From: a virus
Strand: one strand, 5' to 3'
Virus record (IMG/VR): IMGVR_UViG_3300049491_000490
Coordinates: 1-39,490 of that record
DNA length: 39,490 bases
Shown: one piece after another, positions 1-23,349 of the stretch
Layout of the letters: each line of letters opens with the position of its first letter
Position numbering within the stretch: the first letter of the stretch is position 1
Program-made: the position numbers and the translations under genes
Notes under the pieces: model-generated
Told to the model about the DNA's origin: nothing
Databases searched by the model: none
What the model saw: only the letters and a program-made list of their open reading frames with translations

Positions 1-127
1 AAGCGACTCGGGGAGAGGTTTCCCACTTGGGCAATAGATATCCGGCGCATACGCGAAGATGACGCCAGGGTTTGAAGCGAGCGGAAACACTTTGAGAATC
101 TCCGCGTAGTTTACTGGTCGGCCTTTA
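1..127. repeat. Terminal direct repeat, left copy (contig join)
   Basis: Bases 1-127 are identical to 39364-39490. The length of 127 equals a common maximum assembler k-mer, and a gene reads straight across the join, so the repeat most likely marks a circular contig with unit length 39,363 bp. A genuine 127-bp terminal repeat is the alternative. Confidence 0.95.
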
Positions 128-138
128 ATTACTTGCAT
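1..138 (-). CDS. Small HExxH metallopeptidase-like protein, N-terminal part (continues across the join)
   Basis: This is the 5' end of a leftward gene whose remainder is at 39055-39490. The start is the ATG at 138, preceded by a near-perfect site (AGGAGG-taaga-ATG), and it overlaps the last 14 bases of the cupin gene. On the circle the frame runs without break, giving 148 codons, with HEAVH at residues 49-53 (see the right-end entry). The reading across the join is the best internal evidence that the contig is circular. Confidence 0.8.
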   Translation of the reverse strand, partial: MQVIKGRPVNYAEILKVFPLASNPGVIFAYAPDIYCPSGKPLPESL

Positions 139-679
139 TCTTACCTCCTGTTAAAATTTCATATTCTCCGCACCCTTTGCCTACACGGCCGGAGTCGGTT
201 GGATCTGTGAACTCCTGCCACGGCACCCATCCCTTCGGACAGTGGAAGCCCCAATCCCTCACCCGTCGGCCGGTGATGAAAAGAGTCCAGGCCGGCATGC
301 GGGGAACACTCCAAACGCTTCCGCCTGTGGTGTGTCCAATCTGCGCATGATTCTCTACCCAATGCCCCTTGCTGTAATCGTTGCGGAGCTGGAGCCGGTG
401 GGATGCGGTTGCCTTCCGGAAACGAATCCAACCCATGCGACGAATGAACTGGCCCTTGGGCGTGTGTTCGATGTAGCCGCCCTTGAGGATGATTGAGCAA
501 CTCCACCAAGGATGATCGTGGAGCGCGCGGTCGTCATCATCGCGGAGGATGTTGTGGAGGTAGATGTTAAAGAAGCGATTGCGAGGGATGACCCACCACC
601 GCCGGAGATACGGGTCGTCCGGACCTCCGATAATAAAGTCGGGCTCTCGGGGTATTCTAAGCGTGCGGGGTAGTGACAT
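125..679 (-). CDS. Cupin-fold protein
   Basis: This 184-residue protein has a cupin-like core. HDHP at residues 54-57 is followed by a Gly-rich turn (KGGY) with Glu71, and His94 lies further on, matching the usual two-motif metal-binding layout. Cupins of this HDHPW type occur as uncharacterised proteins in phages; substrate and reaction are unknown. A longer in-frame reading exists, but the ATG at 679 follows GGAGGAGAAAA, a strong ribosome site, so I use it. It overlaps the upstream gene by 23 bases and the downstream metallopeptidase-like gene by 14, as expected within the leftward operon. The C-terminal third is rich in aromatic and Gly residues. Confidence 0.7.
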   Translation of the reverse strand: MSLPRTLRIPREPDFIIGGPDDPYLRRWWVIPRNRFFNIYLHNILRDDDDRALHDHPWWSCSIILKGGYIEHTPKGQFIRRMGWIRFRKATASHRLQLRNDYSKGHWVENHAQIGHTTGGSVWSVPRMPAWTLFITGRRVRDWGFHCPKGWVPWQEFTDPTDSGRVGKGCGEYEILTGGKNASN

Positions 680-866
680 TTTTCTCCTCCAGTTTGATGT
701 TATAGTAGTTAATGCCTTTGCTGGGGACCATGTCCAGCGTTCCGGTATAACCCGCTTCTGATGCTCGGATTGCAAGGTGCTGGGCAAACGCCACGCCGGC
801 CATCATTTGGGCCTCGAGGAGAACTCCTCCCTCCGGCCGCATGTCCTTCTTGTTGTCGTTATCCAT
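657..866 (-). CDS. Hypothetical protein, 69 aa
   Basis: No family is recognised. The start is the ATG at 866, which overlaps the TAA of the DUF4326 gene (AATGGATAA), so translation is probably coupled. The sequence is mostly soluble, with a short Ala-rich helix (residues 18-35). It ends 23 bases inside the cupin gene. Tight packing and a codon pattern like its neighbours support it as real. Confidence 0.55.
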   Translation of the reverse strand: MDNDNKKDMRPEGGVLLEAQMMAGVAFAQHLAIRASEAGYTGTLDMVPSKGINYYNIKLEEKNVTTPHA

Positions 867-3940: not shown

Positions 3941-4313
3941 TGGTGTCCTCCATGTAGTCGATGTTGAAAAATCCTAGTTGGCCGGCATGCGGGAAGAACG
4001 GGAGCACTTGCGCCTCATCCATCACGAAGCCGTATTTACCGAAGAACCAGAGCGAGAGGTGCTTCTCGACGCAGTCGGTAATCTTGACCATGCCGACGAC
4101 GCCTCCGCGCTCGATCTTGTCGAGTGGCGGCATCATGGCATAGAGCTCGGGGAACTGGTCCTTGACGAACTCGTAGCCGGCTCTGTCGATCATCTTGCTG
4201 GCGTGAATGAGGCAGTGCCCGCGGTAGAGGGTTTTCCAATCCCGATTCTCGACGGGCTTGTAACCGTTCACGATGAGCCAGGCCCAAGGCTGTCGTATGC
4301 TAATCGCTCGCAT
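3924..4313 (-). CDS. ASCH domain protein
   Basis: The 129 residues open with ISIRQPWAWLIVNGYKPVEN and then RDWKTLYRG, the signature of the ASCH fold, related to PUA RNA-binding domains. A GGVVGMVKI strand follows in mid-protein. ASCH proteins bind RNA or modified nucleotides, and some have amidohydrolase or RNase activity; the substrate here is unknown. The start at 4313 has GGAGGCACAAA upstream, so a 15-codon upstream extension is rejected. It overlaps the preceding gene by 14 bases. Confidence 0.85.
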   Translation of the reverse strand: MRAISIRQPWAWLIVNGYKPVENRDWKTLYRGHCLIHASKMIDRAGYEFVKDQFPELYAMMPPLDKIERGGVVGMVKITDCVEKHLSLWFFGKYGFVMDEAQVLPFFPHAGQLGFFNIDYMEDTNAPRL

Positions 4314-4587
4314 TTTGTGCCTCCGCTGCGGCAGTGTATAGCTGCTCCCCAAGGTCATATTGTTCCGTCGCGGTGAGCTTGCCGTTGTCGACCTGGAGAT
4401 GCTCCGCGACTTCGAGGATTTGCTTGATGAGGGCCTCTTGCACTGTCCGGAGTTTTTGAACGGTTACGCCCAGCCGTGCCGGCCGAACAATAAAGCCCGC
4501 ACCATCCACTTGAAACTCGACGACCTTCCCGCCTTGCGCGCCGGCAATTTTTACGGCCGCTTCGTATGCTTCGTTGAACCGGCTCAT
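4300..4587 (-). CDS. Hypothetical protein, 95 aa
   Basis: No family is recognised. A short beta-rich N-terminal half (VVEFQVDGAGFIV) is followed by a long helix from about residue 42, possibly a dimerisation coil. The start at 4587 follows AAAGGATGAAAGC and overlaps the regulator stop codon, so the two are probably co-translated. Confidence 0.55.
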   Translation of the reverse strand: MSRFNEAYEAAVKIAGAQGGKVVEFQVDGAGFIVRPARLGVTVQKLRTVQEALIKQILEVAEHLQVDNGKLTATEQYDLGEQLYTAAAEAQNASD

Positions 4588-4982
4588 GCTTTCATCCTTT
4601 GCACTGTGTCACGGCATAGAGCCGAGACCATTGTCCTGACGAGCTTCTGGAGTTCGGGGTCCCGAATCTCGCGGTACTCGCGGAGCATACCGCCCTCGAC
4701 TCGGGTGACGCTTTCCTCGAACCCACCGGCCTCGGCTATGATTTCGGTGACTCCGACGTAGAGGGAAGCAACCGGCACGCGACAAGCTCGGGCAATGTCG
4801 GCCAAGGCAGAAGCGGAGACGCGGTTGAAGCCCTTCTCGAACTTCTGGATTTGCTGGTAGGAGACCGGCGGGATGATCGCCGCGCCGACCGCTTCTTGGG
4901 ATAGTCCGGCCATGTGACGAGCCTCTCGGATGTTCTTTCCGAGCTGCACGTCGGCCGCATGGAGTGGGGTGTCGTTAGTCAT
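4584..4982 (-). CDS. XRE-family HTH transcriptional regulator
   Basis: The 132 residues carry a Cro/C1-type helix-turn-helix at about 14-70: LGKNIREARHMAGLSQEAVG, then YQQIQKFEKG and ALADIARACRVP. The C-terminal half is a helical, probably dimerising tail without the peptidase residues of cleavable LexA/CI repressors. Such proteins are common in alphaproteobacteria and their phages. It is in the middle of the leftward operon, not at the divergent control region, so it may act later than the 74-aa HTH protein at 7483. The start at 4982 has AAGGAGACGCCA. Which protein binds the repeated palindromes cannot be told from sequence. Confidence 0.8.
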   Translation of the reverse strand: MTNDTPLHAADVQLGKNIREARHMAGLSQEAVGAAIIPPVSYQQIQKFEKGFNRVSASALADIARACRVPVASLYVGVTEIIAEAGGFEESVTRVEGGMLREYREIRDPELQKLVRTMVSALCRDTVQRMKA

Positions 4983-5889
4983 TGGCGTCTCCTTGTGGGT
5001 TGGTGCCGTCGATGATTTCGTGGAGGCGCTTCACGATGTCCTTCAAGCCCTTCTCGTCGAGCGCGCGCATGAGCGGGAGGTTGGCGGCGACGATGACGTC
5101 ACGCGCCGGCTTATCCTTTGCCGCCTTGAGCTGCCGGCGGAGGACGGTCGCGGCATCGCGCAATCCGGCCTCAGTCGTGGGGAGGGCTGCCGGCTTGTGG
5201 TTCTTCGCCTCGGCCTTCGCTTTATCCGCAAACTTGTCCGGCTTCTCGGCACCGTCACCATTGCCGTCGTTGTCCTCGTCCTTGAGTGTGACGTTGAAAA
5301 TCATGAGGGTGAGATAGCGGCGGAGGTATGAGACGCTCGAGCCCAAGCCCTGGATCGATGTCTTGGTTGCTTTACCCTGCGGCCCACTCATATCGAGGTC
5401 TCCCTCGAGCTCATAGTTCTCGGTCCAGCCGGCCTTGTGGAAGCATTTACACATCATTTTCACCGCGCCGCTCTCCATCTTCTGGGAGTTGAACGAGAGC
5501 GAGAATCCGGCCGCGGTGTAGATGGGGCGGATCTCATTGTCGATGCGCTCGAGCTTCGCGTACTTCTTGCGCTCTCCCGCATCAGCTCGAACGATGGGTT
5601 GCATTTTCTCCTGGGCCTCGGCCATTGCCACCATGAAAGCAAGGTGACGCTGGTCCCGTTCGTGCTCGCGCTGCATGTCCAGGAGGGCCCGCACCTTCTC
5701 GACGTTCACGCGAGGGTTCTCGAGCACGCCAGCGATGATGTTGTAGAGCTGGTTCTCTTGCCGCACGGGGGCGGGCAATGGGTCGGGTTTGATAGGGGCG
5801 AGGGGCAACGAGTTCGTCGCCTCCTCGATCACGGTTGCGCCCAGCTGGGTGCTCTTTGCCTTCATGGATTTCTTAGCGTTTGCGGTCAT
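4975..5889 (-). CDS. erf: ERF-superfamily single-strand annealing protein
   Basis: The 304-residue protein matches the ERF recombinase family. The core (about residues 50-195) has AFMVAMAEAQEKMQPIVR, then YAKLERIDNEIRPI, GFSLSF and a conserved end GLGSSVSYLRRYLTLMIFNV. An acidic linker (DEDNDGNGD) and a Lys/Ala-rich tail follow. ERF proteins anneal complementary single strands during phage recombination and circularisation (known for P22 Erf). The start at 5889 has AAGGAGGATAC; a much longer upstream frame only shadows the nuclease gene. It overlaps that nuclease by 17 bases, a typical annealase-exonuclease pair. Confidence 0.9.
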   Translation of the reverse strand: MTANAKKSMKAKSTQLGATVIEEATNSLPLAPIKPDPLPAPVRQENQLYNIIAGVLENPRVNVEKVRALLDMQREHERDQRHLAFMVAMAEAQEKMQPIVRADAGERKKYAKLERIDNEIRPIYTAAGFSLSFNSQKMESGAVKMMCKCFHKAGWTENYELEGDLDMSGPQGKATKTSIQGLGSSVSYLRRYLTLMIFNVTLKDEDNDGNGDGAEKPDKFADKAKAEAKNHKPAALPTTEAGLRDAATVLRRQLKAAKDKPARDVIVAANLPLMRALDEKGLKDIVKRLHEIIDGTNPQGDAND

Positions 5890-6763
5890 GTATCCTCCTT
5901 GGGGTTTCAAACAGTTCAAAAGTGCGGACTTTGCCAGTGCCGGCCGGCCATTGCGAGAGACCATGTGCTTCCACATTGGCCTTGTATTTGGCGCGCGCGG
6001 CACGCGCCCATTCTTCACCGCTCTCCTTGAGGTGCTGGTCAAGGTCGACGATTTCCCAAATGAAGGGCGGCGTGCTGCGCTGGAAGAAGAACCGGAAAAG
6101 CGTGTCCTCCTCATCCATGAATGCTTTGAGCCAATCCTCAGCAACGTCTCCCTGTGGCTTAATCTTGCCTTTGCGGAGGAGCTTGCGAATCTGGCGGATG
6201 CCGTCCGAGTAGTGCCAGTCCTGAATGTCCAGGCCGTGCGCGGCGATAGCGTTCCCAATGTCGGATGTCCCGATGCCTTTGAGGCGCTTGTAGTCGATGG
6301 CTCCGAATGTCCGGAGGTAATCGACTCGTGCCCGCTGCATCATGCCCGTCTCCTGGTCGCGCCAAAAGAGCGAGACTTCGGGATAGCCAAACTTGAAGTG
6401 CTCGTCGCCCTCCTTGATGCCGCGGATGCGCTGGATCGAGTCGTGGACTTTTATCCAGTTGTCGCGGCTAATCCATAGTTTCTTGTCGTCCGGCTTCATG
6501 CCGTGAACGTTGTATTGCTCGAAGAATGCCATGCCCTCGAGGAGGAATTTGTGGCACCACTTCCCGAAAAACATGGCATCCGTTGCCTTGAACTTCGGTT
6601 TGTCGGGGTTGAGGGCAGAGGATTCCATCCAGTGATCGAGCGGGCTCTCGAGGATATTAACCATGCCACTGTGCGAAAGGGCGGGGTCGTTGTGGTAAAC
6701 TTCCTCGGGGAGGTTGAAATAGATGCCCTCGGCGAGACCTGGGAGCTGTTTGTGCTTGGCCAT
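5873..6763 (-). CDS. PD-(D/E)XK exonuclease (RecE/DUF3799-like)
   Basis: The 296 residues resemble the PD-(D/E)XK nucleases paired with phage annealing proteins. The protein opens with GIYFNLPEEVYHNDPALSHS, which matches the entry motif of that group. Next come FFGKWCHKFLLEG (the conserved Gly/His segment) and RARVDYLRTFGAIDYKRLKG with the acidic residues and Lys of the active site. It probably resects double-stranded ends to give the single strands that the ERF protein anneals. The ATG at 6763 overlaps the upstream stop (TAATG) with AAGGCAGCAAACTA before it. Confidence 0.85.
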   Translation of the reverse strand: MAKHKQLPGLAEGIYFNLPEEVYHNDPALSHSGMVNILESPLDHWMESSALNPDKPKFKATDAMFFGKWCHKFLLEGMAFFEQYNVHGMKPDDKKLWISRDNWIKVHDSIQRIRGIKEGDEHFKFGYPEVSLFWRDQETGMMQRARVDYLRTFGAIDYKRLKGIGTSDIGNAIAAHGLDIQDWHYSDGIRQIRKLLRKGKIKPQGDVAEDWLKAFMDEEDTLFRFFFQRSTPPFIWEIVDLDQHLKESGEEWARAARAKYKANVEAHGLSQWPAGTGKVRTFELFETPRRIHDRKR

Positions 6764-6966
6764 TAGTTTGCTGCCTTTGCACTTGGGCAAAACTTCGCCC
6801 AAAGCTCCATGGTTTTTTTATCGAAGCTCAAGCATGCGGCTGCAACCACGGCCACAGCTTGGGCATCCTCCTGTGACGTAAAGAATCCCAGCTCGATTCG
6901 AGCATAGTGAACTCCTTTAGTTTCAGAGGTCGTTATCATTAAGGCGGGATGTTTTGGCCTTTTCAT
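6763..6966 (-). CDS. Hypothetical protein, 67 aa
   Basis: A small protein of unknown family with a central Ala/Val-rich stretch that looks like a buried helix rather than a clear membrane span. It starts at 6966 within a TAATG overlap and has GAGGTGAAGTA upstream. It is placed between a membrane mini-protein and the recombination nuclease. Confidence 0.55.
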   Translation of the reverse strand: MKRPKHPALMITTSETKGVHYARIELGFFTSQEDAQAVAVVAAACLSFDKKTMELWAKFCPSAKAAN

Positions 6967-7094
6967 TACTTCACCTCGATATAGATGGCGATGCCGCCCA
7001 AGATCGCTAAGATGACAACGGCGATGAGAAGGCAGAAGCCAATCGCCTCCATCCAGTCACGGCCACTTAGGGTGGTTCCTTTTGCTTTGGGCAT
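6966..7094 (-). CDS. Single-span membrane mini-protein, 42 aa
   Basis: This short gene starts at the ATG at 7094, after AAGGAGACGATT, and ends in a TAATG overlap. Residues 1-16 are polar (MPKAKGTTLSGRDWME). Residues 17-38 form one hydrophobic segment (AIGFCLLIAVVILAILGGIA) followed by a short polar tail, so it is very likely a single transmembrane helix. Early membrane mini-proteins of phages often interfere with host functions; the target is unknown. Confidence 0.7.
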   Translation of the reverse strand: MPKAKGTTLSGRDWMEAIGFCLLIAVVILAILGGIAIYIEVK

Positions 7095-7104
7095 AATCGT
7101 CTCC

Positions 7105-7248
7105 TTAGTGGGGCAGGGTTGCGTAAAGGCACGTTTCGCGACTGTGCCCCTTTTGACATTCGGCGAGCGCCTCGTCGGTGGTGGTGGTTGCCATGAATGC
7201 CAAGATGATGAGCGCGGCGAGGATCATGAGCATGCGGTCTTGTGTCAT
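7105..7248 (-). CDS. Small exported or membrane-anchored protein, 47 aa
   Basis: It starts at the ATG at 7248 with AGGAGAATAAT upstream. Residues 6-20 are hydrophobic (MLMILAALIILAFMA), followed by TTTTDEALAE, which resembles a signal peptide and cleavage region. The remaining tail has two cysteines (residues 31 and 40) that could form a disulfide outside the cytoplasm. No family is recognised. Confidence 0.6.
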   Translation of the reverse strand: MTQDRMLMILAALIILAFMATTTTDEALAECQKGHSRETCLYATLPH

Positions 7249-7249
7249 A

Positions 7250-7342
7250 TTATTCTCCTGAACGCTTGAGGGCTTTGCCAATCAGTACCGCGAGCGCGAA
7301 GCTCACGACGAGATAGGCAAGGATGCCGAGGGTGGTGTACAA
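7250..7342 (-). CDS. First gene of the leftward operon: 30-aa membrane peptide, TTG start
   Basis: A TTG at 7342 preceded by AGGAGAAACCCCC opens a 30-codon frame. Nearly all of it is one hydrophobic helix (TLGILAYLVVSFALAVLIG) ending in a basic cap (KALKRSGE). The stop is one base before the next start. The site is about 56 bases downstream of the predicted leftward promoter start. Shortness and the TTG start lower certainty, but ribosome site, topology and packing agree. Confidence 0.6.
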   Translation of the reverse strand: MYTTLGILAYLVVSFALAVLIGKALKRSGE

Positions 7343-7404
7343 GGGGGTTTCTCCTGGTCGTTTGGTTAAGTGGCATTGTTTCCAGCAACACCACTATGGG
7401 ATGT

Positions 7405-7433
7405 GTTATTGCAGAATAGATTTTGTGCGTCAA
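7405..7433 (-). promoter_or_regulatory. Leftward early promoter with operator O1 in the spacer
   Basis: On the minus strand a TTGACG -35 (7428-7433) and an AATAAC -10 (7405-7410) are 17 bases apart. The spacer is occupied by GCAGAATAGATTTTGT (7411-7426), one of five near-identical palindromes in the genome. A repressor bound here would block RNA polymerase. It would drive the whole leftward operon starting at 7342. Confidence 0.7.
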
Positions 7434-7447
7434 ATTAAAAATGCACA

Positions 7448-7476
7448 TTTACAGAATTTATTTTGTAAGGTACATT
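7448..7476 (+). promoter_or_regulatory. Rightward promoter with operator O2; predicted leaderless start
   Basis: TTTACA (7448-7453) and TACATT (7471-7476) are separated by 17 bases. The palindrome ACAGAATTTATTTTGT (7451-7466) overlaps the -35 and spacer. The next gene's ATG is at 7483, about seven bases past the -10, so the transcript probably begins at or next to the start codon, as for lambda cI from its maintenance promoter. O1 and O2 centres are 40 bp apart, close to four helical turns. Confidence 0.6.
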
Positions 7477-7482
7477 CCGCCC

Positions 7483-7707
7483 ATGGCTAAGATGAAAGAG
7501 AAAAAATACAGTTCAACCCGCGAGTGGCTTCTGGCGAAAGTGGAGGAGTTCCTCGTGAACAATCCCCATCTTGATCCTGAGTCGTTCGGCTGGAAATCTG
7601 TACGCGACACCTCTATCGTCTCACGCCTCCGTGTCGGCAAGGATGTCACCACGCGCAAGCTCGACATGCTGATCGCCTACATGGCAAACCCCAACCAACC
7701 ACGATAA
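7483..7707 (+). CDS. Small HTH DNA-binding protein, candidate repressor
   Basis: The 74-residue protein has SFGWKSVRDTSIVSRLRVGK at about 34-53 followed by VTTRKLDMLIAYM. This matches the pattern of small alphaproteobacterial and phage HTH proteins (F-G-x3-x-x-D-x-x-V-x-x-L-R-x-G ... T-x-x-K). It is the first gene rightward of the divergent control region, its promoter carries operator O2, and its mRNA appears leaderless. It is therefore the best candidate to bind the repeated palindromes and repress its own and other promoters (inference). An AAGG lies 11 bases before the ATG, but would probably not be transcribed. Confidence 0.65.
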   Translation: MAKMKEKKYSSTREWLLAKVEEFLVNNPHLDPESFGWKSVRDTSIVSRLRVGKDVTTRKLDMLIAYMANPNQPR

Positions 7708-7716
7708 GGAGTTCCT

Positions 7717-7905
7717 ATGACTATCCACGTTAAGTTTGAGAACCTGTCCGCGCCTGTGCAAATCGTTCAGAGCGAAGAAGTCATCACCACGCTCGAGGAA
7801 GGACAATCACACACCATCAGCACCGACGACGAGCATACGCTCACCGTGCGCAAGGTGCCGGCGGTAGAAGAAACCGTTGCCGGCGGCGAACCCGCGGCCG
7901 CGTAA
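7717..7905 (+). CDS. Hypothetical protein, 62 aa
   Basis: A small acidic protein, probably beta-rich in its first 45 residues, with a low-complexity Ala/Gly/Glu end. AAGGAGTTCCT precedes the ATG at 7717. No family is recognised. Confidence 0.6.
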   Translation: MTIHVKFENLSAPVQIVQSEEVITTLEEGQSHTISTDDEHTLTVRKVPAVEETVAGGEPAAA

Positions 7906-7912
7906 CCACCTC

Positions 7913-7937
7913 GCCCCTGGGGATGGTCTCCAGGGGC
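7913..7937 (+). other. Stable hairpin between early genes
   Basis: GCCCCTGGGGA and TCTCCAGGGGC form an 11-bp stem with one G-U pair and a three-base loop. No T-run follows, so it is not a standard intrinsic terminator. It may be an RNA processing or stability element in the early rightward transcript. Confidence 0.5.
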
Positions 7938-7961
7938 ACCTAACCAAGTAAGGAGAGCCAA

Positions 7962-8399
7962 ATGGCAAAAGCAAAACAAGCCGAATCCCACGACGAGAGC
8001 ATCGGCGCAAAGCCGAAGGTGACAAAGGGCAAGAAGCCCCAAGTCGCCATCGCCGCGGGGCACAATAGCGGCGTGAATCCCCAGCTCGTGGAAATCTTCA
8101 CGCTCGATGCTGAGTACCAAGACAAAATCAAGGAGCTCAACAAAGCGCGCCGCGATCTTCGCAACCGTGCCAAGACTGAGTTCAACGTCCTGAGCTCGGT
8201 GTATCAGCACCAGGTGAAGCTCCGCAAGATGGACCGCGACGTTCGCATCCAGTTCGAGAGCGGCACGCACGACCTCCAGAATATGCTTGGCTATCAGGCA
8301 AGCCTCGACTTGGCTCCTGGCACGGTTCCGCGCACCGAGGAGGAGTATTTGGACCCGTCGGCTGTTGCTGCCGGCAAACTCATCAACAAGCACCACTAG
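7962..8399 (+). CDS. AGHNS-motif helical protein, DUF2312/GapR-like
   Basis: The 145 residues begin with a Lys/Ala-rich leader, then AGHNSG (32-37), a motif common at the start of alphaproteobacterial DUF2312/GapR-like proteins. A long charged coiled-coil region (about 45-90) follows. GapR-type proteins bind AT-rich or overtwisted DNA; the match here is partial, so function is uncertain. AAGGAGAGCCAA precedes the ATG. It lies just upstream of the resolvase gene in the early rightward operon. Confidence 0.5.
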   Translation: MAKAKQAESHDESIGAKPKVTKGKKPQVAIAAGHNSGVNPQLVEIFTLDAEYQDKIKELNKARRDLRNRAKTEFNVLSSVYQHQVKLRKMDRDVRIQFESGTHDLQNMLGYQASLDLAPGTVPRTEEEYLDPSAVAAGKLINKHH

Positions 8400-8408
8400 G
8401 GGCTTAAT

Positions 8409-8972
8409 ATGGTTGGCGACCGTACCGTTCTTGCACTCGATTTAGGCCAAGATTGCGGATGGGCATTCGGTAAGAATGGCATCATCGAGGCAAGCGGTAC
8501 GGAAACCTTCAAGAAGGCGAACACCCATCCGGGTTATGAGTTCGTCAAATTCCGCGAATTTCTTCACGACTTCCGCTCGGTCGATATGATCCTCTACGAG
8601 CGCGTGTCCGGCTTCAAGGGTGCCGGCGCTGCCATGAACTACGGCGCATATAAATCGCATCTCATGGTTTTTTCTCACGTTCACAAAATCAAGATGCAGA
8701 ACATGAAGCCGGGAGACATCAAGCGTCTATTTACCGGCAACGGCAACGCGCCGAAAGAGGATATGTGTGCCGTCGCGCACAAGCTCGGCTGGCAAGGCGG
8801 TATGCCTGGGACCAGAATCGACCATGATGAATGTGATGCCATCGCGTTGCTCTGGTGCGTTTATCACGAGCACGGCATCAAGCCCATGCTCAAGGTGAGA
8901 GGGCGCGAAACACGAATTATTCCGACTGTTGCAAATTTGCATGTTGCCAATGAGACCAGTTCAGGCGCATAA
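8409..8972 (+). CDS. RuvC-like Holliday junction resolvase (RNase H fold)
   Basis: The 187 residues show the RuvC-type acidic tetrad: Asp11 in VLALDLGQDCGWA, Glu64 in MILYERV, and Asp140/Asp143 in IDHDECDAIALLW. The segment IKRLFTGNGNAPKEDM is also typical of phage RuvC-like nucleases. It would cut branched DNA during recombination or before packaging. A GGGG element precedes the ATG at 8409. Its stop codon abuts the T-rich tail of an oppositely directed small RNA gene. Confidence 0.8.
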   Translation: MVGDRTVLALDLGQDCGWAFGKNGIIEASGTETFKKANTHPGYEFVKFREFLHDFRSVDMILYERVSGFKGAGAAMNYGAYKSHLMVFSHVHKIKMQNMKPGDIKRLFTGNGNAPKEDMCAVAHKLGWQGGMPGTRIDHDECDAIALLWCVYHEHGIKPMLKVRGRETRIIPTVANLHVANETSSGA

Positions 8973-9043
8973 AAAGAAACGGCCAGGCGAATCGTCAAAT
9001 CCCCTGGCCTGATAAAGTCTCTGGCACGAGCCCTTTATCCCTT
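8971..9043 (-). ncRNA. Candidate small RNA, about 73 nt, antisense to the early operon
   Basis: On the minus strand, a predicted start near 9043 is followed by hairpin 1 and hairpin 2. Hairpin 1 pairs GATAAAG with CTTTATC (9033-9039 with 9011-9017) and has an inner GGC-tcgt-GCC. Hairpin 2 pairs GGCCAGG with CCTGGCC (9003-9009 with 8981-8987) and runs straight into GTTTCTTTTT (8971-8980), an intrinsic terminator in this direction only. The arrangement (promoter, hairpin, terminator, no start codon) is that of a free-standing sRNA. It sits near the replication genes, as lambda oop does, but no sequence similarity is claimed. Confidence 0.65.
8981..9009 (-). terminator. Intrinsic terminator of the small RNA
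   Basis: A 7-bp GC-rich stem (GGCCAGG/CCTGGCC) has a 15-base loop. On the minus strand it is followed by GTTTCTTTTT. On the plus strand there is no T-run, so it terminates leftward transcription. Confidence 0.7.
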
Positions 9044-9049
9044 CCTCAA

Positions 9050-9077
9050 AATCTACCACTTTTGCCGATTTTGTCAA
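9050..9077 (-). promoter_or_regulatory. Minus-strand promoter of the small RNA
   Basis: TTGACA (9072-9077), a 16-base spacer and TAGATT (9050-9055) form a near-consensus sigma-70 promoter pointing away from the replication genes. No operator palindrome overlaps it, so the RNA could be made while the repressor-controlled promoters are off. Confidence 0.65.
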
Positions 9078-9089
9078 GTCCACTAATGT

Positions 9090-9432
9090 CGTGCCCACGG
9101 TTATCGCTTCCCGAATCAAAAAGCGATGATGACTCCCGCGCGTCTACCCCCGCGCGCTCGACTGGCTAGGGATAGCTTGAGAGATACGACCGCATAACGT
9201 ACCGCACATTCCCAACTTTGGGGCGGGGCCTGGTGGCTCAGGATAAAAAGCAGCGGCTCGAATACGGGAGAGGCAGACGTCCTACCAAAGGCCGAGGCGC
9301 AGGATTATCTCCTGCGGGGTTGCTCGGGGGTATTGGCTATGCTAAAACGGAACTGTATGCTTCCGTGGTCTCCTACGGTTAAGCCTGTGGGGTGGAGAGG
9401 TTTCCAGACCGTTTGCATCCACCCCACAATTG
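9090..9432. other. Hairpin-dense region without a gene; candidate origin or structured RNA
   Basis: No convincing coding frame is seen in either direction. Self-complementary pairs include ATCGCTT/AAGCGAT, CGCGCG/CGCGCG, GCTA/TAGC, CCTG/CAGG, CGCAGGA/TCCTGCG (about 9298-9316), ACGGAA/TTCCGT, and a 10-bp TGTGGGGTGG/CCACCCCACA pair at about 9387-9428. No tRNA, tmRNA, RNase P or 6S consensus is recognised. It lies directly upstream of the helicase-loader candidate, so it may contain the replication origin, or encode a second structured RNA. Confidence 0.45.
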
Positions 9433-9440
9433 AATTTCGT

Positions 9441-9469
9441 TTGCTACAAAATATATTTTGTGATTATAT
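9441..9469 (+). promoter_or_regulatory. Rightward replication promoter with perfect operator O3
   Basis: TTGCTA (9441-9446) and TTATAT (9464-9469) are 17 bases apart. The perfect palindrome ACAAAATATATTTTGT (9446-9461) fills the spacer. It would drive the replication genes from 9513. It has the same architecture as the sites at 7411 and 12576. Confidence 0.7.
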
Positions 9470-9512
9470 CAACTCGTCGATCTGGAAGTCGACACAACAA
9501 AAGGAGACAATC

Positions 9513-9983
9513 ATGAGTAAAGAGCCGCCCGTATCTGTGCGCGAATTGATTAAAGAGCTCAACGAAGGCGTTGGGTTGAAATTAGCCGAAAAGAATCGAG
9601 ATTACGTCCTGCGGGTGATTGAACACCTCCAAGATAACATCCGCCAAAGGAAAGCATCAAAGCCCAAGGTGGTGAGAAATACACGCGCACCATCCCTAGT
9701 TGCATTGCCTGAGTGGGAAGAAAGTCGCGGCCATTGGCTTTGTTACGATGACATAAAGCAATGGGCAAAAGAGAAGCAGTTGAGCGAAGTGACCTTAACG
9801 GAATTGATTAAAGAGTTCCGCTTCGAGATGATTGGCAAGAACAAGCATTACGCCGATTTCCGCTATGCCTTCATGACGTACCTCACCAAAGGCTTCCTCT
9901 CAAAAACACTCGAGCAAGTAAAGGGCAACAATGCCAAGGTTGGCTTGGTAGCGCGTACCACCACGAGAGGGGTTTCGATATGA
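9513..9983 (+). CDS. Putative helicase loader or replication initiator
   Basis: The 156-residue protein has a helical N-terminal half and a conserved-looking C-terminal domain: HWLCYDDIKQWAKE (74-87), then LTELIKEFRFEMIGKNKHY and ADFRYAFMTYLTKGFLS. This W-x-x-Y / FR / YADFR / F-x-TYL pattern recalls DnaT-like helicase-loading domains, but I cannot assign it firmly. Position supports the idea: it follows O3 and the candidate origin and precedes the primase-helicase. AAAAGGAGACAATC precedes the ATG at 9513. An in-frame extension upstream would cross the promoter and is rejected. Confidence 0.5.
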   Translation: MSKEPPVSVRELIKELNEGVGLKLAEKNRDYVLRVIEHLQDNIRQRKASKPKVVRNTRAPSLVALPEWEESRGHWLCYDDIKQWAKEKQLSEVTLTELIKEFRFEMIGKNKHYADFRYAFMTYLTKGFLSKTLEQVKGNNAKVGLVARTTTRGVSI

Positions 9984-10150
9984 GCGAAGAAAAATTTGTA
10001 AGTGTGCTTGATTTCATGGCGAAGCATTTTGTCGATGAGCTTTCCGAGCCCGTGCCGCCGTTCATTGAAAAATTCATGGGAGAGATGGAAAAAAAACCAA
10101 AAAAAATAATCATCATCACGAATCCTAAGCGTTCAGGGGGGATTTTATGA
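9980..10150 (+). CDS. Hypothetical protein, 56 aa
   Basis: A short acidic then basic protein: residues 1-37 form charged helices, and the end contains EKKPKKIIIITNPKRSG, a basic and hydrophobic tail. It starts in an ATGA overlap with the loader candidate, with GAGAGGGG upstream, and ends in another ATGA overlap. No family is recognised. Confidence 0.6.
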   Translation: MSEEKFVSVLDFMAKHFVDELSEPVPPFIEKFMGEMEKKPKKIIIITNPKRSGGIL

Positions 10151-10350
10151 GCGAACAAACCGCCGACCTCAACCTCCACGGCACGGGAGCGAAAGCACGC
10201 CGGAGCATGGTGTTCTACCGCGGGACCGATAGAGTCGGGCAAATCTTCGGAGAACATGCCCAGCTTCAAACGCTCCGCGCCTTGTGGCTTTCGGGTGCGA
10301 ACTTCGCCGCGGTAATTGCTCAGGCTGAGAAGATGGGGATCGAACTTTGA
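10147..10350 (+). CDS. Hypothetical protein, 67 aa
   Basis: No family is recognised. The sequence is mixed alpha/beta with a helical end (LRALWLSGANFAAVIAQAEK). AGGGGGGATTTT precedes the ATG at 10147. It overlaps the primase-helicase start by four bases (TTGA). Confidence 0.6.
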   Translation: MSEQTADLNLHGTGAKARRSMVFYRGTDRVGQIFGEHAQLQTLRALWLSGANFAAVIAQAEKMGIEL

Positions 10351-12161
10351 GCCTCGCCAAGCAGCTCAAGGAGCAAGGCATCATCCTCGTGGGTAAGCCC
10401 ATCGAAGGACGTCACGAAACGGATTGCCCGCGGGACTACTGCCAAATCGACCGCGCCGGCATGGACACGGATTGCTTGAAGGTCGACATCCTCGGCAAGG
10501 ACTTCGCCGAGTGGAAGTGTGCAAATTGCCTATGGTCGGGTAAGGTGGGCACGGATCCACGGGTTGAAGTGGAAGAACCCCCCGTTGCCCCCCAGGTCCC
10601 CGCCCTAGCCGCAAATCGTCCGCCTCAATCCGCGGATGGTCTGCCGATGGAAATCATCCAATACTTCGAGGACCGAAAAATTGCGCTCGATGTGGTGCAA
10701 AAATGCAAGATACGCTGGAATGAGGAACAACAGGCGATTGGCTTCCCGTACCTCGACACTGCCGGCGTGCCCTCGAACATGATGTATCTCCAGATTCCCG
10801 AGCAAACGACCAGACTGGCATCCGCGAAGCGCATCCAGTTTTACGGCATCAACGAGATCGACTTCAACCAGGACGTCATCATCGTCCAGACGGAGATGGA
10901 TCGCTTGGCGCTCCTCACCTCGGGGCTCTCGAATGTCATCTCACTCCCCAATGGTGGCAATCTGCCGCGGCGCGTGACGGATTCGTATGAGCAAGCTCCG
11001 GACGAGTTCGAATATTTTGCCCAGCATGCGGAGGCGTTCGTGAAGATGCACCGCATCATCATCGCCATGGACAACACTCCCGAAGGCGACGTGTTCCGCC
11101 ACGAGATAGCGCGGCGCGTGGGTGCGGCGAAGTGCTTCAACGTGAAGTTCTCCCGCCGGACGCTGGGCAAAACCTTCAAGGACATGGGCATCGACGAGAT
11201 TTGTGCCGACATCCACGAAGCGAAACCTCACCCCATCCGCGGGCTTTATGAGGTGATGGACTTCGAGAGCCAGCTCATGACGTACTTCGACGGGGGCATG
11301 GCCTCGGGTGTTTCCACTGGATGGGAGAACGTCGACCGCCTCTACACCATCGTCGGCGGCCAACTCACCACCGTCACCGGCATCCCAAACTCGGGCAAAT
11401 CTGAATGGGTGGATGCGCTCACGCTGAACCTGGCGCTCTCGTATGGCTGGCGCTTCGGCGTGTTCTCTCCGGAGAACGGGAAGGAGGTCCACGTCACCAA
11501 GCTCGTCGAGAAGCGGGTGGAGATTACGGCCGACCCTCGATCGAGCTCACGCATGAGCCGCGAGACGTTCCTCTCGGGTGCAAGCTGGGTGAACGAGCAT
11601 TACTTTTTCATCGTCTCCGACATCATGGAGAGCATGCCAACCCTCGAGTGGATTCTCGAGCGCGCGGCGGATGCGGTGCTCCGGTATGGCATCAAGGGCC
11701 TCATCATCGATCCATGGAACCGAATCGACAAGAAGCTGGGCGCTCAAAGCGAGACTGACTACACGGCGGGAGCCTTGGCGCAAATCCTCCGCTTTGCTCA
11801 GAATCACGACGTCCACGTATGGCTCGTTGCTCACCCTGCCAAGCAACAGGCGGATAAAAAGACGGGCATCATCCCGCCTCCGAGCCTGTACGACATCGCC
11901 GGCTCGGCGCATTTCGTGAACATGACCGACAACGGCATCGTCATCCATCGCTCGGCGTCCATCGACGACTCGACCGAGGTGTGGGTGAAGAAGGTCCGCT
12001 TCAAGCACGTCGGCACCACGGGCGACACGCTGCTCATGTACAACAAGGAGACTGGCCGCTTCACGAGTGACACTCCGGACGCCATCTACTCGATGACGAC
12101 CGAGGAGGAGAAGAAACGGTACAAGAAGCCGGCAAAACTCATAGAAACGATCGAGGCATAG
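10347..12161 (+). CDS. Primase-helicase, T7 gp4/Twinkle type, with degenerate TOPRIM
   Basis: The 604-residue protein has three parts. A zinc finger has Cys27, Cys32, Cys58 and Cys61. A TOPRIM-like region spans about 120-290. A RecA-fold helicase follows, with Walker A GIPNSGKS (345-352) and Walker B GLIIDPWNR (451-459). In the TOPRIM the usual EGE-x-D is QTEMD (181-185), so the catalytic Glu is Gln, and the D-x-D is D-N-T (242-244). Primer synthesis may therefore be weak or lost while 5'-3' unwinding is kept. The start is TTG at 10347, overlapping the preceding stop, with GGGGAT upstream. With no phage polymerase, it presumably recruits the host replisome. Confidence 0.88.
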   Translation: MSLAKQLKEQGIILVGKPIEGRHETDCPRDYCQIDRAGMDTDCLKVDILGKDFAEWKCANCLWSGKVGTDPRVEVEEPPVAPQVPALAANRPPQSADGLPMEIIQYFEDRKIALDVVQKCKIRWNEEQQAIGFPYLDTAGVPSNMMYLQIPEQTTRLASAKRIQFYGINEIDFNQDVIIVQTEMDRLALLTSGLSNVISLPNGGNLPRRVTDSYEQAPDEFEYFAQHAEAFVKMHRIIIAMDNTPEGDVFRHEIARRVGAAKCFNVKFSRRTLGKTFKDMGIDEICADIHEAKPHPIRGLYEVMDFESQLMTYFDGGMASGVSTGWENVDRLYTIVGGQLTTVTGIPNSGKSEWVDALTLNLALSYGWRFGVFSPENGKEVHVTKLVEKRVEITADPRSSSRMSRETFLSGASWVNEHYFFIVSDIMESMPTLEWILERAADAVLRYGIKGLIIDPWNRIDKKLGAQSETDYTAGALAQILRFAQNHDVHVWLVAHPAKQQADKKTGIIPPPSLYDIAGSAHFVNMTDNGIVIHRSASIDDSTEVWVKKVRFKHVGTTGDTLLMYNKETGRFTSDTPDAIYSMTTEEEKKRYKKPAKLIETIEA

Positions 12162-12162
12162 C

Positions 12163-12573
12163 ATGAGCAAGAAGGAAGAATTTATTCCAATCCCCGAGAC
12201 CTTTGAGGATTACAGCCCTAACGACGAGCGTATGCTGCAATCGCGGTATGGCGACCGTGAGCGCTTGGGCGAGGAATTGTCCCAGGCCCGCGAACTGTTG
12301 AAGAAAAACTCCTTATTGGCGGACGGCTCACCAAACCCGAATCGCATCCGCTTCGAGATGCAGGAGGCAATCGCCCGCATGAACTTCGACATGGGCTTCC
12401 TGCTTGCCCGCAATAGGCTCCAGGCCGAGCAAATCGAGATGCTGAACACCATGTACCAGCGCATGGGCATCCTCGAGGGTGCATACTCGCACCTCATGGC
12501 AATGACTCAGGGTGTTAAGCTCGAGTATTATGCGAAGCTCAAAAAGTTCGTCGATAAGAAGCCGGACGCTTGA
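12163..12573 (+). CDS. Hypothetical helical protein, 136 aa
   Basis: Almost entirely helical and charged from residue 20 on, with probable coiled-coil segments (about 28-50 and 62-100). It follows the primase-helicase by one base and ends within the next promoter (TTGACC overlaps its stop). It may be an accessory replication protein by position; no family is recognised. Confidence 0.6.
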   Translation: MSKKEEFIPIPETFEDYSPNDERMLQSRYGDRERLGEELSQARELLKKNSLLADGSPNPNRIRFEMQEAIARMNFDMGFLLARNRLQAEQIEMLNTMYQRMGILEGAYSHLMAMTQGVKLEYYAKLKKFVDKKPDA

Positions 12574-12598
12574 CCGCAAAATATATTCTGCGTAAATT
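12570..12598 (+). promoter_or_regulatory. Rightward promoter with operator O4 before the terminase region
   Basis: TTGACC (12570-12575), a 17-base spacer and TAAATT (12593-12598) make a strong promoter. The palindrome GCAAAATATATTCTGC (12576-12591) occupies the spacer. The -35 overlaps the TGA stop of the gene before it, a compact arrangement. It would drive genes from 12630. Confidence 0.75.
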
Positions 12599-12629
12599 CA
12601 TTTTCACCACCAACCAACAGGAGAACTTA

Positions 12630-13049
12630 ATGGCATTCGACGCATATCTACCAGGGACCGAGGTCTCATACGTGAAGATGACGCCAATCGGCGAAATCAA
12701 AGAGGGCACGGCTCTCATTCGTGGCTCGGGCCTGGATCATACCCTTCGTCCGGTTTACACCCTGCAATTGCCTGACGGCAAATGCTTCAACGTCGCAACG
12801 ATCGCGGTGAATTTGAAGGACGAGGACAAACAGGCGTACATCGACGGCATCCATGCTGTGCGTAATCGTGCGACTGAGGCTCAAGACTTTATCAACGAGC
12901 ACACCATCATCGCCAACAAGGACATCAAAGAACTGACGACCAAGGTGTTCGGCGGTCCGCTCGAGCAAATGCTTCCGAGCAAGGAGACCCACTCGGATGA
13001 TGTGCCGGCTGTTTCAAAAGAGGGGACGACCAACCTGGATGTCGCTTAG
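12630..13049 (+). CDS. Hypothetical protein, 139 aa
   Basis: The first gene behind promoter O4. Residues 1-75 look beta-rich (VSYVKMTPIGEIKEGTALI; LRPVYTLQLPDGKCF), the rest helical. No family is recognised. CAGGAGAACTTA precedes the ATG at 12630. Its 3' end overlaps the small terminase by 11 bases. Confidence 0.65.
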   Translation: MAFDAYLPGTEVSYVKMTPIGEIKEGTALIRGSGLDHTLRPVYTLQLPDGKCFNVATIAVNLKDEDKQAYIDGIHAVRNRATEAQDFINEHTIIANKDIKELTTKVFGGPLEQMLPSKETHSDDVPAVSKEGTTNLDVA

Positions 13050-13844: not shown

Positions 13845-14021
13845 ATGATGCTAATCCGTAAAACTAAAGAGCGTGGATGGTACAAGCCTCGACAGGAGGT
13901 AGATTTGCCCATGTTCCAGCACTGTTGCGAGGGTTTCATCGAGGTGCGGAGCCTTGCAGACTACTTGCCCGTATTCGCTGCGCACGGCATTCAATTAATG
14001 ATTCAGGATGAAACGTTATGA
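13845..14021 (+). CDS. Hypothetical protein, 57-58 aa
   Basis: A short frame starts with two adjacent ATGs (13845, 13848) after GGGAGGA; the second is better spaced. It has no recognised family. Notable residues are a CC pair ([10 protein letters not shown]) and a hydrophobic end. It ends in an ATGA overlap with the next small gene, so the chain 13845-14373 is probably translated in a coupled way. Confidence 0.55.
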
Positions 14022-14140
14022 ACACCAACAAGAAAGAATGCCGGGAGGCGTTACCCCCTTGCCAATACTGCGGCGAAACGGAAGGCAAGCGAAGCCATCG
14101 ACGAAGCCTTCACCCAACACACAGGAGACAAAGCCAATGA
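14018..14140 (+). CDS. Hypothetical basic mini-protein with C-x2-C, 40 aa
   Basis: Starts in an ATGA overlap at 14018 and ends in an ATGA overlap with the acyl carrier protein gene. It contains [13 protein letters not shown] and a very Arg/His-rich tail. A metal site is possible. It may mainly serve to couple translation of the next gene. Confidence 0.45.
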
Positions 14141-14373
14141 TTAATACATTCGAGACCATGACGCCAATCATCATCGAGCACCTAGGCGTAGAGAAGGAAA
14201 TCACCCGCGCCACTGACTTCCTCGAGGACCTTGGCGCTGATAGCCTGGACATGGTCGAGCTCGTCATGGCATTCGAGGAGGAGTTCAAGCTCGAGACCAT
14301 CGAGGACCATGAGGTCGAGAAGGTCCGCACCGTCCAGGACGCCATCGATCTGATTGAGAAGAAGCGCAAATAA
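14137..14373 (+). CDS. acpP: Acyl carrier protein
   Basis: A 78-residue acidic protein with the acyl carrier signature [20 protein letters not shown] (residues 29-48). Ser36 in the DSL motif is the expected 4'-phosphopantetheine site. Length, helix pattern and charge match bacterial AcpP. In cells it carries growing acyl chains for fatty acid synthesis and donates them to acyltransferases. AGGAGACAAAGCC precedes the ATG. It is unusual in a phage and lies between the two terminase subunits, just ahead of the structural promoter. It may divert acyl groups to a phage acyltransferase, or act on host lipid metabolism (both inference). All core residues look intact. Confidence 0.93.
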
Positions 14374-16138: not shown

Positions 16139-16408
16139 ATGGCGATCAGGATTGATATAGAAGATGTGAATGGGCAAACCTATGGCTATTGGGTCATCCC
16201 CATCGCTACGCAATACTATGAGACCAAGCGGCTCATCGTCGACGTCGTAGGCTATAAGAACAAGGCAACGAAGGATGCGGGCAAGCAGGGCTGGGCCCGC
16301 AAGTTCGTCATCGAGGGCGATGCATGGAATAAGAACATGACCGTCAACGCCATCGAAGCGGCGGTGATGGCCTTGCCTGAGTTCAACGGGGCAGTGACAA
16401 CCACATGA
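16139..16408 (+). CDS. Hypothetical protein, 89 aa
   Basis: A small alpha/beta protein of unknown family. It overlaps the large terminase start (ATGA), so translation is probably coupled. Its place between fibre-like genes and terminase suggests a virion or packaging accessory. Confidence 0.6.
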   Translation: MAIRIDIEDVNGQTYGYWVIPIATQYYETKRLIVDVVGYKNKATKDAGKQGWARKFVIEGDAWNKNMTVNAIEAAVMALPEFNGAVTTT

Positions 16409-17775
16409 CCTCACAAATCAGCTTACCGGAGATTCTCCTCATCCCGCCGAAGCTCATGCCGCTCATCACGGACTTCAATCACTACAAGTATTTCCTCATC
16501 GAGGGAGGCCGTGGCTCTGCTAAGACGCAATCGGTCGGCCGCGTGCTGCTCTACATCGCCGAGCAAGTAAAGGCGCGTATCTTCTGTGGCCGTGAGCTGC
16601 AAGATAGCATTGAGGAGTCGGTCTTCTCGGTGCTGAATGACCACATCACCAACCACAACCTGGCCTTCCGAGTTCGCCTCAACGGCATCCGCCACCTCAT
16701 GACGGGCTCGACCTTCAAGTTCAAGGGCTTCCGTGAGCAAGGCTCCGTGAAGATTAAAGGGATCGAGGGCGTCGATATTATTTGGGTCGACGAGGCGGAG
16801 GCCATCACCAAGCCCGTCCTGGACAAGATCATCCCGACCGTGCGTAAGAACAACGCGCGCCTCATCTTCACCATGAACCGCTTCCTCCGCTCCGACGCCG
16901 TCATCAAGGAGCTGGCCGGCCGCCCTGATTGCCTCCACATCCGGATCAACTACTTCGAGAATCCATATTGCCCTCTCACCCTCAAGCACGAGGCCGAGCT
17001 GCTCAAGAACAAGGACCGCAAGTCGTACAATCACATCTGGCTCGGGCAACCTCTCGAGACCTTCGGCGACTACCTGTTCAACTTCGAGAAGATCGAGAAG
17101 GCCAAGAGCATCGCCCCCTTCGGTGAACTGTTCACGCGCCAGCGCATCCTCGCTATCGACTTCGCTGCCCAGGGTGCGGATTTGTCCGTCGCCACCATCC
17201 TCGACCGCGTGAGCCCTCAGCATTGGAAGATTACCGAGCAAATCGCATGGGGTGAGCCGGACCCAATGGTCACGGTCGGCAAGATTGTCCAGCTCATCGG
17301 TGAGCACAAGCCGACCATCTCGATCCTGGACGTGGGCGGTGGTGGTCATGTGGTATGGTCGCGCCTCAACGAAGTCCTCGCCGGCACGAAGAAGGTGGTC
17401 CAGCGCTTCGACGGCGGCGGAACCAAGTCCATGAACGTCGACACCAAGCTCTATGTGAACGCTCGAGCCGAGGGGTATTATGAGTTCAAGGAGTGGGTCG
17501 ACCAGGGCTATTTAATCATCGACGGCAAGCATGACGACCTTCTCGTGCAAATGGAGACAATCCGCACCAAGCCCCGCTCTAACGGCGTGCGCGGCATCCG
17601 GAGCAAGGACGAGATGCGAAACGACAAGCCTCCCGTGCCATCCCCGGACCATGCCGACTCCGTGATGATGGGCATCTGGGCGGCGAAGAAGTTCTTGGGT
17701 AAGACCGCGAACACAGAAGCGGCCGAGGCGAATGTCGTCGTCAGGCGCAACATCTCCAAACGCAAGAGGGGCTAG
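16405..17775 (+). CDS. terL: Terminase large subunit
   Basis: The 456 residues contain both motor and nuclease domains. Walker A GGRGSAKT is at 34-41, Walker B IIWVDEAE at 125-132 with catalytic Glu130, and a coupling segment IFTMN at 154-158. The RNase H-type nuclease has Asp252 (LAIDFA), Asp309 (ILDVGG) and Asp418 (HADSVM). This is the PBSX/Terminase_3-like group that packages DNA into the procapsid and cuts concatemers. The ATG at 16405 overlaps the preceding stop. It is followed by the GNAT gene in a TAGTG overlap. Confidence 0.95.
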   Translation: MTSQISLPEILLIPPKLMPLITDFNHYKYFLIEGGRGSAKTQSVGRVLLYIAEQVKARIFCGRELQDSIEESVFSVLNDHITNHNLAFRVRLNGIRHLMTGSTFKFKGFREQGSVKIKGIEGVDIIWVDEAEAITKPVLDKIIPTVRKNNARLIFTMNRFLRSDAVIKELAGRPDCLHIRINYFENPYCPLTLKHEAELLKNKDRKSYNHIWLGQPLETFGDYLFNFEKIEKAKSIAPFGELFTRQRILAIDFAAQGADLSVATILDRVSPQHWKITEQIAWGEPDPMVTVGKIVQLIGEHKPTISILDVGGGGHVVWSRLNEVLAGTKKVVQRFDGGGTKSMNVDTKLYVNARAEGYYEFKEWVDQGYLIIDGKHDDLLVQMETIRTKPRSNGVRGIRSKDEMRNDKPPVPSPDHADSVMMGIWAAKKFLGKTANTEAAEANVVVRRNISKRKRG

Positions 17776-18236
17776 TGGACATCCGCTCATTCATTCCGAC
17801 CGACATCCACGAGTTCATGGACGCGGCCGAGAACTTCTTCCGCGAAAGCCGCAACCGCGACTACTCGGTGAACCTAGAGCGCTATCGCAGCTTGATCCTG
17901 GCCTCGGTAGGGGTGAACACGGTCTCGGTGCTTGTGGCCGTCGAGGATGGGATTGTTGCCGGTTATGCCATCCTCACCGTCATGAGAGACTTCACAGACG
18001 AGCCGATTGGTGATATGTATCAATTCTACGTCCGGCCAGAATATCGAGGCTCGGGTGCAGCGCGGGGGTTAAGGGATGCGGTGGTGAAGCGTTTCGACGA
18101 GTGGGGATGTCCTTTAAGCCATGTATCGGCTGACGCGGGCATCGACGAGGACGGAACGGCAACTCTCCTATTTCGGAACCTTTGGGCAAAGGTAGGCTAC
18201 GACGTAACCGGCGTTGTCATGACGCGCAAGAAATAG
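17775..18236 (+). CDS. GNAT-family acyltransferase
   Basis: The 153-residue protein has a GNAT fold, with GIVAGYAIL and MYQFYVRPEYRGSGAARGLR (about 81-100) giving the acyl-CoA/pantetheine-binding R-x-x-G-x-G/A loop. The substrate is unknown. It starts with GTG at 17775 in the terminase stop codon (GAGGGG upstream). GNATs are found near terminase genes in other podoviruses. Because this genome also encodes an acyl carrier protein, an acyl-ACP donor is conceivable, as for HlyC or LuxI type enzymes of similar fold, but nothing in the sequence proves it. Confidence 0.85.
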   Translation: MDIRSFIPTDIHEFMDAAENFFRESRNRDYSVNLERYRSLILASVGVNTVSVLVAVEDGIVAGYAILTVMRDFTDEPIGDMYQFYVRPEYRGSGAARGLRDAVVKRFDEWGCPLSHVSADAGIDEDGTATLLFRNLWAKVGYDVTGVVMTRKK

Positions 18237-18244
18237 GGGGATTT

Positions 18245-18460
18245 ATGGCTGGTGGACTCATTGGAGGACTGCTTGGTGCAATCGTTGGTGGGGGTAGCAC
18301 TCCCAAGGTGGACACGGCCGGCGCTCTCGCCCCGGTGGTCGAGGATCAGAACTTGGCGAAGAAAGCCCGCCAAGCGCTTCTTGAGACCACGGGAGGCATC
18401 CAGGGCGCGGAGCTCACACCCAGCCAGGTAAAGCAGCGCGACACCTTGTTCGGTAACTAG
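18245..18460 (+). CDS. Small Gly-rich protein before the portal, 71 aa
   Basis: The first 18 residues are Gly-rich and hydrophobic (MAGGLIGGLLGAIVGGGS) and could insert in a membrane or pack in the virion; the rest is helical and polar. Small proteins like this sit just upstream of the portal gene in related podoviruses. The start at 18245 follows a GGGGG element. Confidence 0.6.
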   Translation: MAGGLIGGLLGAIVGGGSTPKVDTAGALAPVVEDQNLAKKARQALLETTGGIQGAELTPSQVKQRDTLFGN

Positions 18461-18462
18461 CC

Positions 18463-21441: not shown

Positions 21442-21450
21442 GAGAGAATC

Positions 21451-22170: not shown

Positions 22171-22191
22171 TTGCTTGCCGAGCGACTTGAG

Positions 22192-22226
22192 GCCCTCGCA
22201 TGCTGTATCATGCGAGGGCTTTTTTT
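22192..22226 (+). terminator. Intrinsic terminator before the capsid gene
   Basis: A perfect 11-bp stem, GCCCTCGCATG (22192-22202) and CATGCGAGGGC (22209-22219), has a six-base loop and is followed by seven T residues. This is a textbook rho-independent terminator and implies that the capsid gene has its own promoter or is reached by read-through. Confidence 0.92.
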
Positions 22227-22233
22227 ATGCCGC

Positions 22234-22260: not shown

Positions 22261-22266
22261 TTCCTC

Positions 22267-22358: not shown

Positions 22359-22410
22359 TCACAAAACCCCTGATTATTTTCATTCAAATCAACCTTTTGT
22401 GGAGTGTTCC

Positions 22411-23340: not shown

Positions 23341-23349
23341 GAGGGTTTC

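Follow-up and report, generated by a model that had tools for sequence, protein, structure and literature searches.

OOP is a classic phage antisense RNA, and its role is debated: it has been taken either to silence cII or to tune transcription into the origin. The OOP cases known to us are lambdoid. The locus described here raises the question of whether an RNA gene of this kind sits in the early operon of a phage outside that group, and what it could do there. The window, by which we mean the whole stretch of DNA analysed, is a 39,490-base IMG/VR virus record whose proteins mark it as a podovirus-like phage. A first-pass annotation, made from the letters alone, had placed a small RNA gene on its minus strand at an oop-like position. 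We consider it probable that the locus indeed encodes a non-coding RNA of ~74 nt, antisense in cis, which works in the manner of lambda OOP.

Early region of the window

By protein assignment, the leftward genes comprise an Erf/exonuclease VIII module together with an XRE-type regulator, while the rightward ones encode a RuvC-like resolvase, a primase/helicase and the structural proteins. The genes nearest the locus are as follows, with identities to the early-region relative L106, which is introduced below.

7962-8399, plus strand: unnamed early protein with a GHNSG motif and no family match; its core is 59% identical in L106
8409-8972, plus strand: RuvC-like Holliday junction resolvase gene (phrog_159, E 1e-13), whose 3′ end faces the antisense RNA
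8970-8972, plus strand: ruvC stop codon, reached by the U-rich tail of the antisense RNA
9513-9983, plus strand: gene of unnamed function, the first 3′ of the gap and 5′ of the primase/helicase; a 29% identical counterpart has the same place in L106
10347-12161, plus strand: primase/helicase (phrog_239, E 9e-57), 59% identical in L106

The locus had been described as lying between the resolvase and replication genes, and the phrog_159 and phrog_239 matches flank it accordingly, with the 9513-9983 gene also in between. The 7962-8399 protein is a good marker for relatives of this early module. The noncoding gap that follows ruvC (8973-9512) is unusually long at 540 nt, as are its counterparts of 660 nt in L106 and 440 nt in a second relative, G006.

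The early (4000-13000) and structural (16400-36000) parts of the window form a mosaic: its structural genes are 40-69% identical to those of several environmental phages, while the early module has been exchanged and is common only to L106. Two probable auxiliary metabolic genes encode a cysteine dioxygenase-like protein (125-787, minus strand; phrog_4786, E 3e-59) and an acyl carrier protein-like protein (14008-14373, plus strand; phrog_5934, E 4e-19).

Promoter, hairpins and terminator of the predicted RNA

The first-pass annotation had read a TTGACA-N16-TAGATT promoter followed by two hairpins and a T-rich end on the minus strand, and each of these elements was borne out at 9077-8970.

9050-9077, minus strand: sigma70-type promoter TTGACA-N16-TAGATT, matching at 10/12 positions; TG stands one base ahead of the -10, and there is no operator
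9077-9072, minus strand: -35 of this promoter, TTGACA
9055-9050, minus strand: -10 of this promoter, TAGATT, after a 16-nt spacer
8970-9043, minus strand: predicted ~74-nt antisense RNA, its start estimated 7 nt past the -10 and its end in the T-run
9011-9039, minus strand: hairpin 1, 29 nt, a 7-bp outer stem GATAAAG/CTTTATC with a weak inner stem
8981-9009, minus strand: hairpin 2, the terminator, 29 nt, stem GGCCAGG/CCTGGCC, -16.9 kcal/mol
8971-8980, minus strand: U-rich tail GTTTCTTTTT, following hairpin 2

The letters after the terminator stem are G TTTCTTTTT A. Folded from 9043 to 8970, the RNA reached -28.7 kcal/mol (z = -3.45), and none of 200 shuffles was as good. The terminator stem consists of 7 pairs plus 2 inner pairs around a loop of 9 nt, and was missed by a standard scanner because that scanner accepts loops of 3-8 nt. 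On both strands of the 39.5-kb window, this is the sole pair of a promoter (at least 10/12) and a terminator within 250 nt. When the gap was shuffled, an equally strong terminator arose no more than 60 nt from the ruvC stop in 0.4% of cases for the window and in 0.3% for L106. Searched against Rfam at gathering and E-value thresholds, the RNA had no credible match.

The claim that no coding frame is present was essentially right: no frame starting with ATG or GTG was found in the predicted RNA, but a 52-codon TTG frame (8961-9119), itself without an ATG or GTG start, crosses both the promoter and the RNA. The claim that the terminator works in one direction stood, as the terminator has no T-run on the plus strand and we found no other terminator on that strand of the gap; a sense RNA reading through from ruvC is therefore possible. 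We also searched the gap for origin iterons and found none. We rejected the idea of a single long, structured plus-strand RNA with the hairpins as parts of it, since the gap fold reached only z -1.0 over 473 nt; a 489-nt stretch of the minus strand reached z -1.3, so that neither strand has a strong overall fold.

Architecture conserved in two relatives

L106 (IMGVR_UViG_3300022917_000069, one contig) came from an alignment-based helicase scan. It is syntenic with the window gene by gene throughout the early region (Erf, exonuclease VIII, HTH, 7962 protein, RuvC, 9513 protein, helicase), with identities of 59% for the 7962 protein, 51% for RuvC, 29% for the 9513 protein and 59% for the helicase. 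Because L106 was picked by protein and not by RNA, its gap is an independent test. A third module was found in G006 (locus L086), a structural relative of the window, by a scan of structural relatives under the same rule.

L106, 3912-4568: gap, holding the minus-strand module directly 3′ of ruvC
L106, 4046-4018, minus strand: promoter TTGACT-N17-TATACA (or N19-TACAAT), then two hairpins and a T-tail
G006, 14589-14483, minus strand: module of TTGACA-N17-CATAAT, two hairpins and TTCTTATTTA, fold z -3.74
G006, 14589-14561, minus strand: promoter TTGACA-N17-CATAAT, counterpart of the window promoter

Conservation of the stems in relatives had been set beforehand as the test that could sink the proposal, and the stems are kept both at the syntenic site of L106 and in an early-operon gap of G006. 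The L106 module is the only promoter-terminator pair of that contig; its RNA folds with z -4.66 and its second hairpin is followed by TTATTTTTA. In G006 the module is antisense in an early operon with different early genes, a Cro-like regulator among them; a RusA-type resolvase and small genes come ahead of it, and it lies directly 3′ of a small early gene, before the 440-nt gap. The predicted RNAs measure 74 (window), 75 (L106) and 74 nt (G006), with hairpins of 29 + 29, 30 + 29 and 29 + 30 nt, and from -35 to tail the window and L106 both span 98 nt. All three phages have a TTGACA or TTGACT promoter 97-98 nt from the tail. Promoter, hairpins, terminator and orientation form an architecture that is conserved across three phages.

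The letters themselves have turned over. Compared pairwise without gaps, the three RNAs share 27 to 32 of 74 bases (36-43%), with window and L106 at ~43%, and at such low identity MAFFT did not bring the two stems into register. No loop sequence or unpaired motif is conserved among them, and hardly any stretch is unpaired. Between window and L106, 7/7 pairs of the terminator stem survive, through two double changes and one compatible change, and the pairing is lost when the stem partner is slid along; with two sequences only, however, 125 of 500 shuffles reached the observed values. Statistical significance was out of reach here because only one truly syntenic relative was found, and the case therefore rests on architecture and synteny.

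Relatives were few. Ordinary searches with ruvC, the helicase or the proteins encoded at 7962 and 9513 gave no close relative, and the window plus L106 helicase alignment as query found only L106 and one distant fragment. Capsid relatives (61-69%) have structural genes in common with the window but not the early region. When 385 genomes, all from one class, were searched for a host with a 7962/L106 profile, there was one weak match, which lacked synteny. We also used the terminator half-stem as a DNA pattern to scan viral contigs and discarded the outcome: all 63 exact matches were chance, none having the second half of either hairpin.

We then asked how specific the design is, using a descriptor that calls for a promoter scoring 9/12 or better, a pair of adjacent hairpins and a T-tail; the hairpins could lie up to 8 nt apart in the lambda and P22 scans, and up to 6 nt apart in the shuffle and helicase-locus scans. 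In the lambda stretch its only match was OOP, and in the whole of P22 its only match was the annotated oop, results that support the earlier assignment of a small RNA gene at an oop-like place. Shuffled sequence gave 2.7 matches/Mb, or about one expected in 0.43 Mb. The matches in the 0.43 Mb scanned were those in the window, L106 and G006, plus one sense-strand terminator that recurs 5′ of the capsid gene; the G006 copy thus comes from a scan in which about one chance match is expected, but its position is specific. Across 159 other primase/helicase loci (1.54 Mb) the descriptor matched 7 times, which is chance level, and none of the 7 lay in an antisense gap upstream of the helicase. In the window, a strong sense terminator (22190-22236, plus strand, -24 kcal/mol) occupies the gap ahead of the major capsid gene, and relatives have one at the same place with other stems.

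These comparisons bear on the reading that the hairpin pair, T-run and promoter-like hexamers came together by chance. Some promoter-terminator pair does turn up in 5% of dinucleotide shuffles of the whole window, at a looser terminator cut-off of -9 kcal/mol (the antisense terminator itself has -16.9), but the same module recurs in L106, at the syntenic gap, and again in G006, and the descriptor found OOP in lambda and P22, leaving chance assembly very improbable.

Operator-like sites and a model for early control

A 16-bp palindrome, ACAAAATNNATTTTGT, occurs in six copies in the window against 0.74 expected.

7411, 7451, 9446 (perfect), 12576, 13056 and 20439: operator-like palindrome copies
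9446-9461, plus strand: perfect copy ACAAAATATATTTTGT, overlapping the -10 of the promoter-like site at 9430-9457, with a counterpart in L106 near 4512
9430-9457, plus strand: promoter-like site ahead of the 9513 gene and the helicase

Some copies are far from the early control region, like stoperators. Directly 5′ of the 9446 operator and the replication promoter is a perfect 11-bp hairpin (9386-9428) with a T-tail on neither strand; a comparable G+C-rich hairpin occupies this position in L106 (~4449-4492).

As had been claimed, the RNA gene carries no operator: there is none within 8970-9080, the nearest 16-bp operator-like site being that at 9446-9461. The operator-like sites of L106 are likewise at 2340 and, with one mismatch, at ~4512, with none at its RNA. 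From this absence we infer that the RNA may be made during repression. Since the 9446 operator overlaps the -10 of the 9430-9457 promoter, the replication genes are probably served by a separate, repressible promoter that lies downstream of the antisense gene.

We propose that the RNA would be transcribed from its operator-free sigma70-type promoter, against the rightward early operon, and would act in cis through perfect pairing with the ruvC transcript at its 3′ end, a stretch that would also be the leader of any read-through transcript into the replication genes. RNase III would presumably cleave the duplex, and polymerases coming from the convergent promoter would also obstruct read-through. 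Its physiological role would be to turn down the first early (recombination) unit and set it apart from the replication unit, which would be run by its own operator-controlled promoter at ~9430-9461. Both actions, antisense and convergent transcription, would be expected because the module has the same layout as OOP/pO.

Convergent transcription could also be all that matters, the promoter hindering rightward read-through into the replication region and the RNA being a by-product. In lambda, pO reduces the pR transcription that enters the origin region, and its influence on replication does not depend on the level of OOP (PMC3985674); in our three phages the position of the promoter is kept while the RNA sequence is not. 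Pure interference needs no hairpins, however, and both are kept at 29-30 nt, hairpin 1 included, so that we regard this reading as unlikely.

Action in trans, in which the RNA is produced but targets some other mRNA of phage or host and its antisense position is incidental, has little probability in our estimate. A free-standing promoter and a U-rich 3′ end like that of Hfq-bound RNAs would suit such a role, and lambda has a trans-acting RNA, PreS, which acts on dnaN (PMC12197685). Against it, the three RNAs offer hardly any unpaired stretch and no common loop sequence. A scan of the RNA against candidate mRNAs gave no coherent trans target: its best duplexes were with doubtful ORFs, and those of the G006 RNA were no better than those of shuffled RNAs. 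That no unpaired motif is conserved is in keeping with a target in cis, which would change as the RNA changes, as in the model that we prefer.

A second minus-strand promoter-like site (TCGACT-18-TATAAT, 9492-9463, with TG before the -10) abuts the 9446 operator; a minus-strand transcript starting there would be ~480 nt long and would end at the terminator of the antisense RNA. The hairpins could thus be a leftward terminator or insulator only, halting minus-strand transcription such as that from 9492-9463 before ruvC, with the 9077 promoter there by chance. We find this quite improbable: the TTGACA/TTGACT promoter keeps its distance from the tail in all three phages, the minus strand of the gap has no gene in need of ending, and L106 has no 9/12 minus-strand promoter at its operator.

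Comparison with OOP, Sar and plasmid antisense RNAs

The layout of the locus, predicted from its letters, is that of OOP in lambda and P22: leftward, antisense to the rightward early operon and just 5′ of the replication genes, with its own promoter and an intrinsic terminator that is the second of two hairpins. At a predicted 74 nt it falls within the ~70-80 nt of a two-hairpin RNA, and lambda OOP has 77. With its own promoter and terminator and perfect complementarity to the overlapping sense transcript, it also has the sequence features of a cis-encoded antisense sRNA. OOP of lambda runs leftward from pO to its end at tO, sharing 52 bases with cII; RNase III has been proposed to cleave the hybrid of cII and OOP, and cleavage sites outside cII have been reported (PMC5869508).

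The differences lie in what the RNA faces. Whereas OOP faces cII, the window RNA faces a RuvC-like resolvase gene with no cII-like gene, and a cII-type activator overlap is absent from window, L106 and G006 alike. The window RNA reaches the stop codon only, and those of the relatives end ~28 nt (L106) and ~8 nt (G006) past the upstream stop codon, leaving the coding sequence uncovered. Sequence similarity to OOP was not detectable. For a LexA box, the window has no CTGT-N8-ACAG and has GTTC-N7-GTTC only at 8241, motifs that may not be those of the host. The window RNA is not an OOP homologue, there being no cII, an overlap of the stop codon at most, no LexA box and no Rfam match.

An OOP-design module beside a resolvase gene, with neither cII nor coding overlap, separates the two debated roles. 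If it is indeed conserved in these phages, its general purpose cannot be to silence cII, and a role in early and replication transcription is favoured. The OOP-like design persists in two related phages, with almost wholly changed sequence, and homology searches miss such RNAs because conservation is in structure only; the promoter/two-hairpin/T-tail descriptor is a simple route to more of them. More tentatively, it is possible that OOP-type antisense control is a general early-operon device beyond enterobacterial lambdoids, present in environmental podoviruses in a strict form, with two hairpins of 29-30 nt and a distance of 97-98 nt between -35 and tail, and keeping the recombination unit from the independently repressed replication unit while its sequence turns over and neighbour genes are exchanged.

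CopA/RNAI-type RNAs that set plasmid copy number are constitutive, have two hairpins and lie opposite the leader of replication functions. They resemble the window RNA in pairing fast-diverging sequence with stable structure, but the sense partner in the window has no sign of a replication primer or of a rep leader acting on translation. Sar of P22, an antisense RNA of ~70 nt with two hairpins (28 and 32 nt) in the gap between two sense genes, is closer in form; it differs in covering the ant start and blocking translation, whereas the next start in the window (9513) is ~470 nt away. As predicted from its architecture, the window RNA is a new member of the phage two-hairpin cis-antisense RNAs typified by OOP and Sar, and lies outside the lambdoids.
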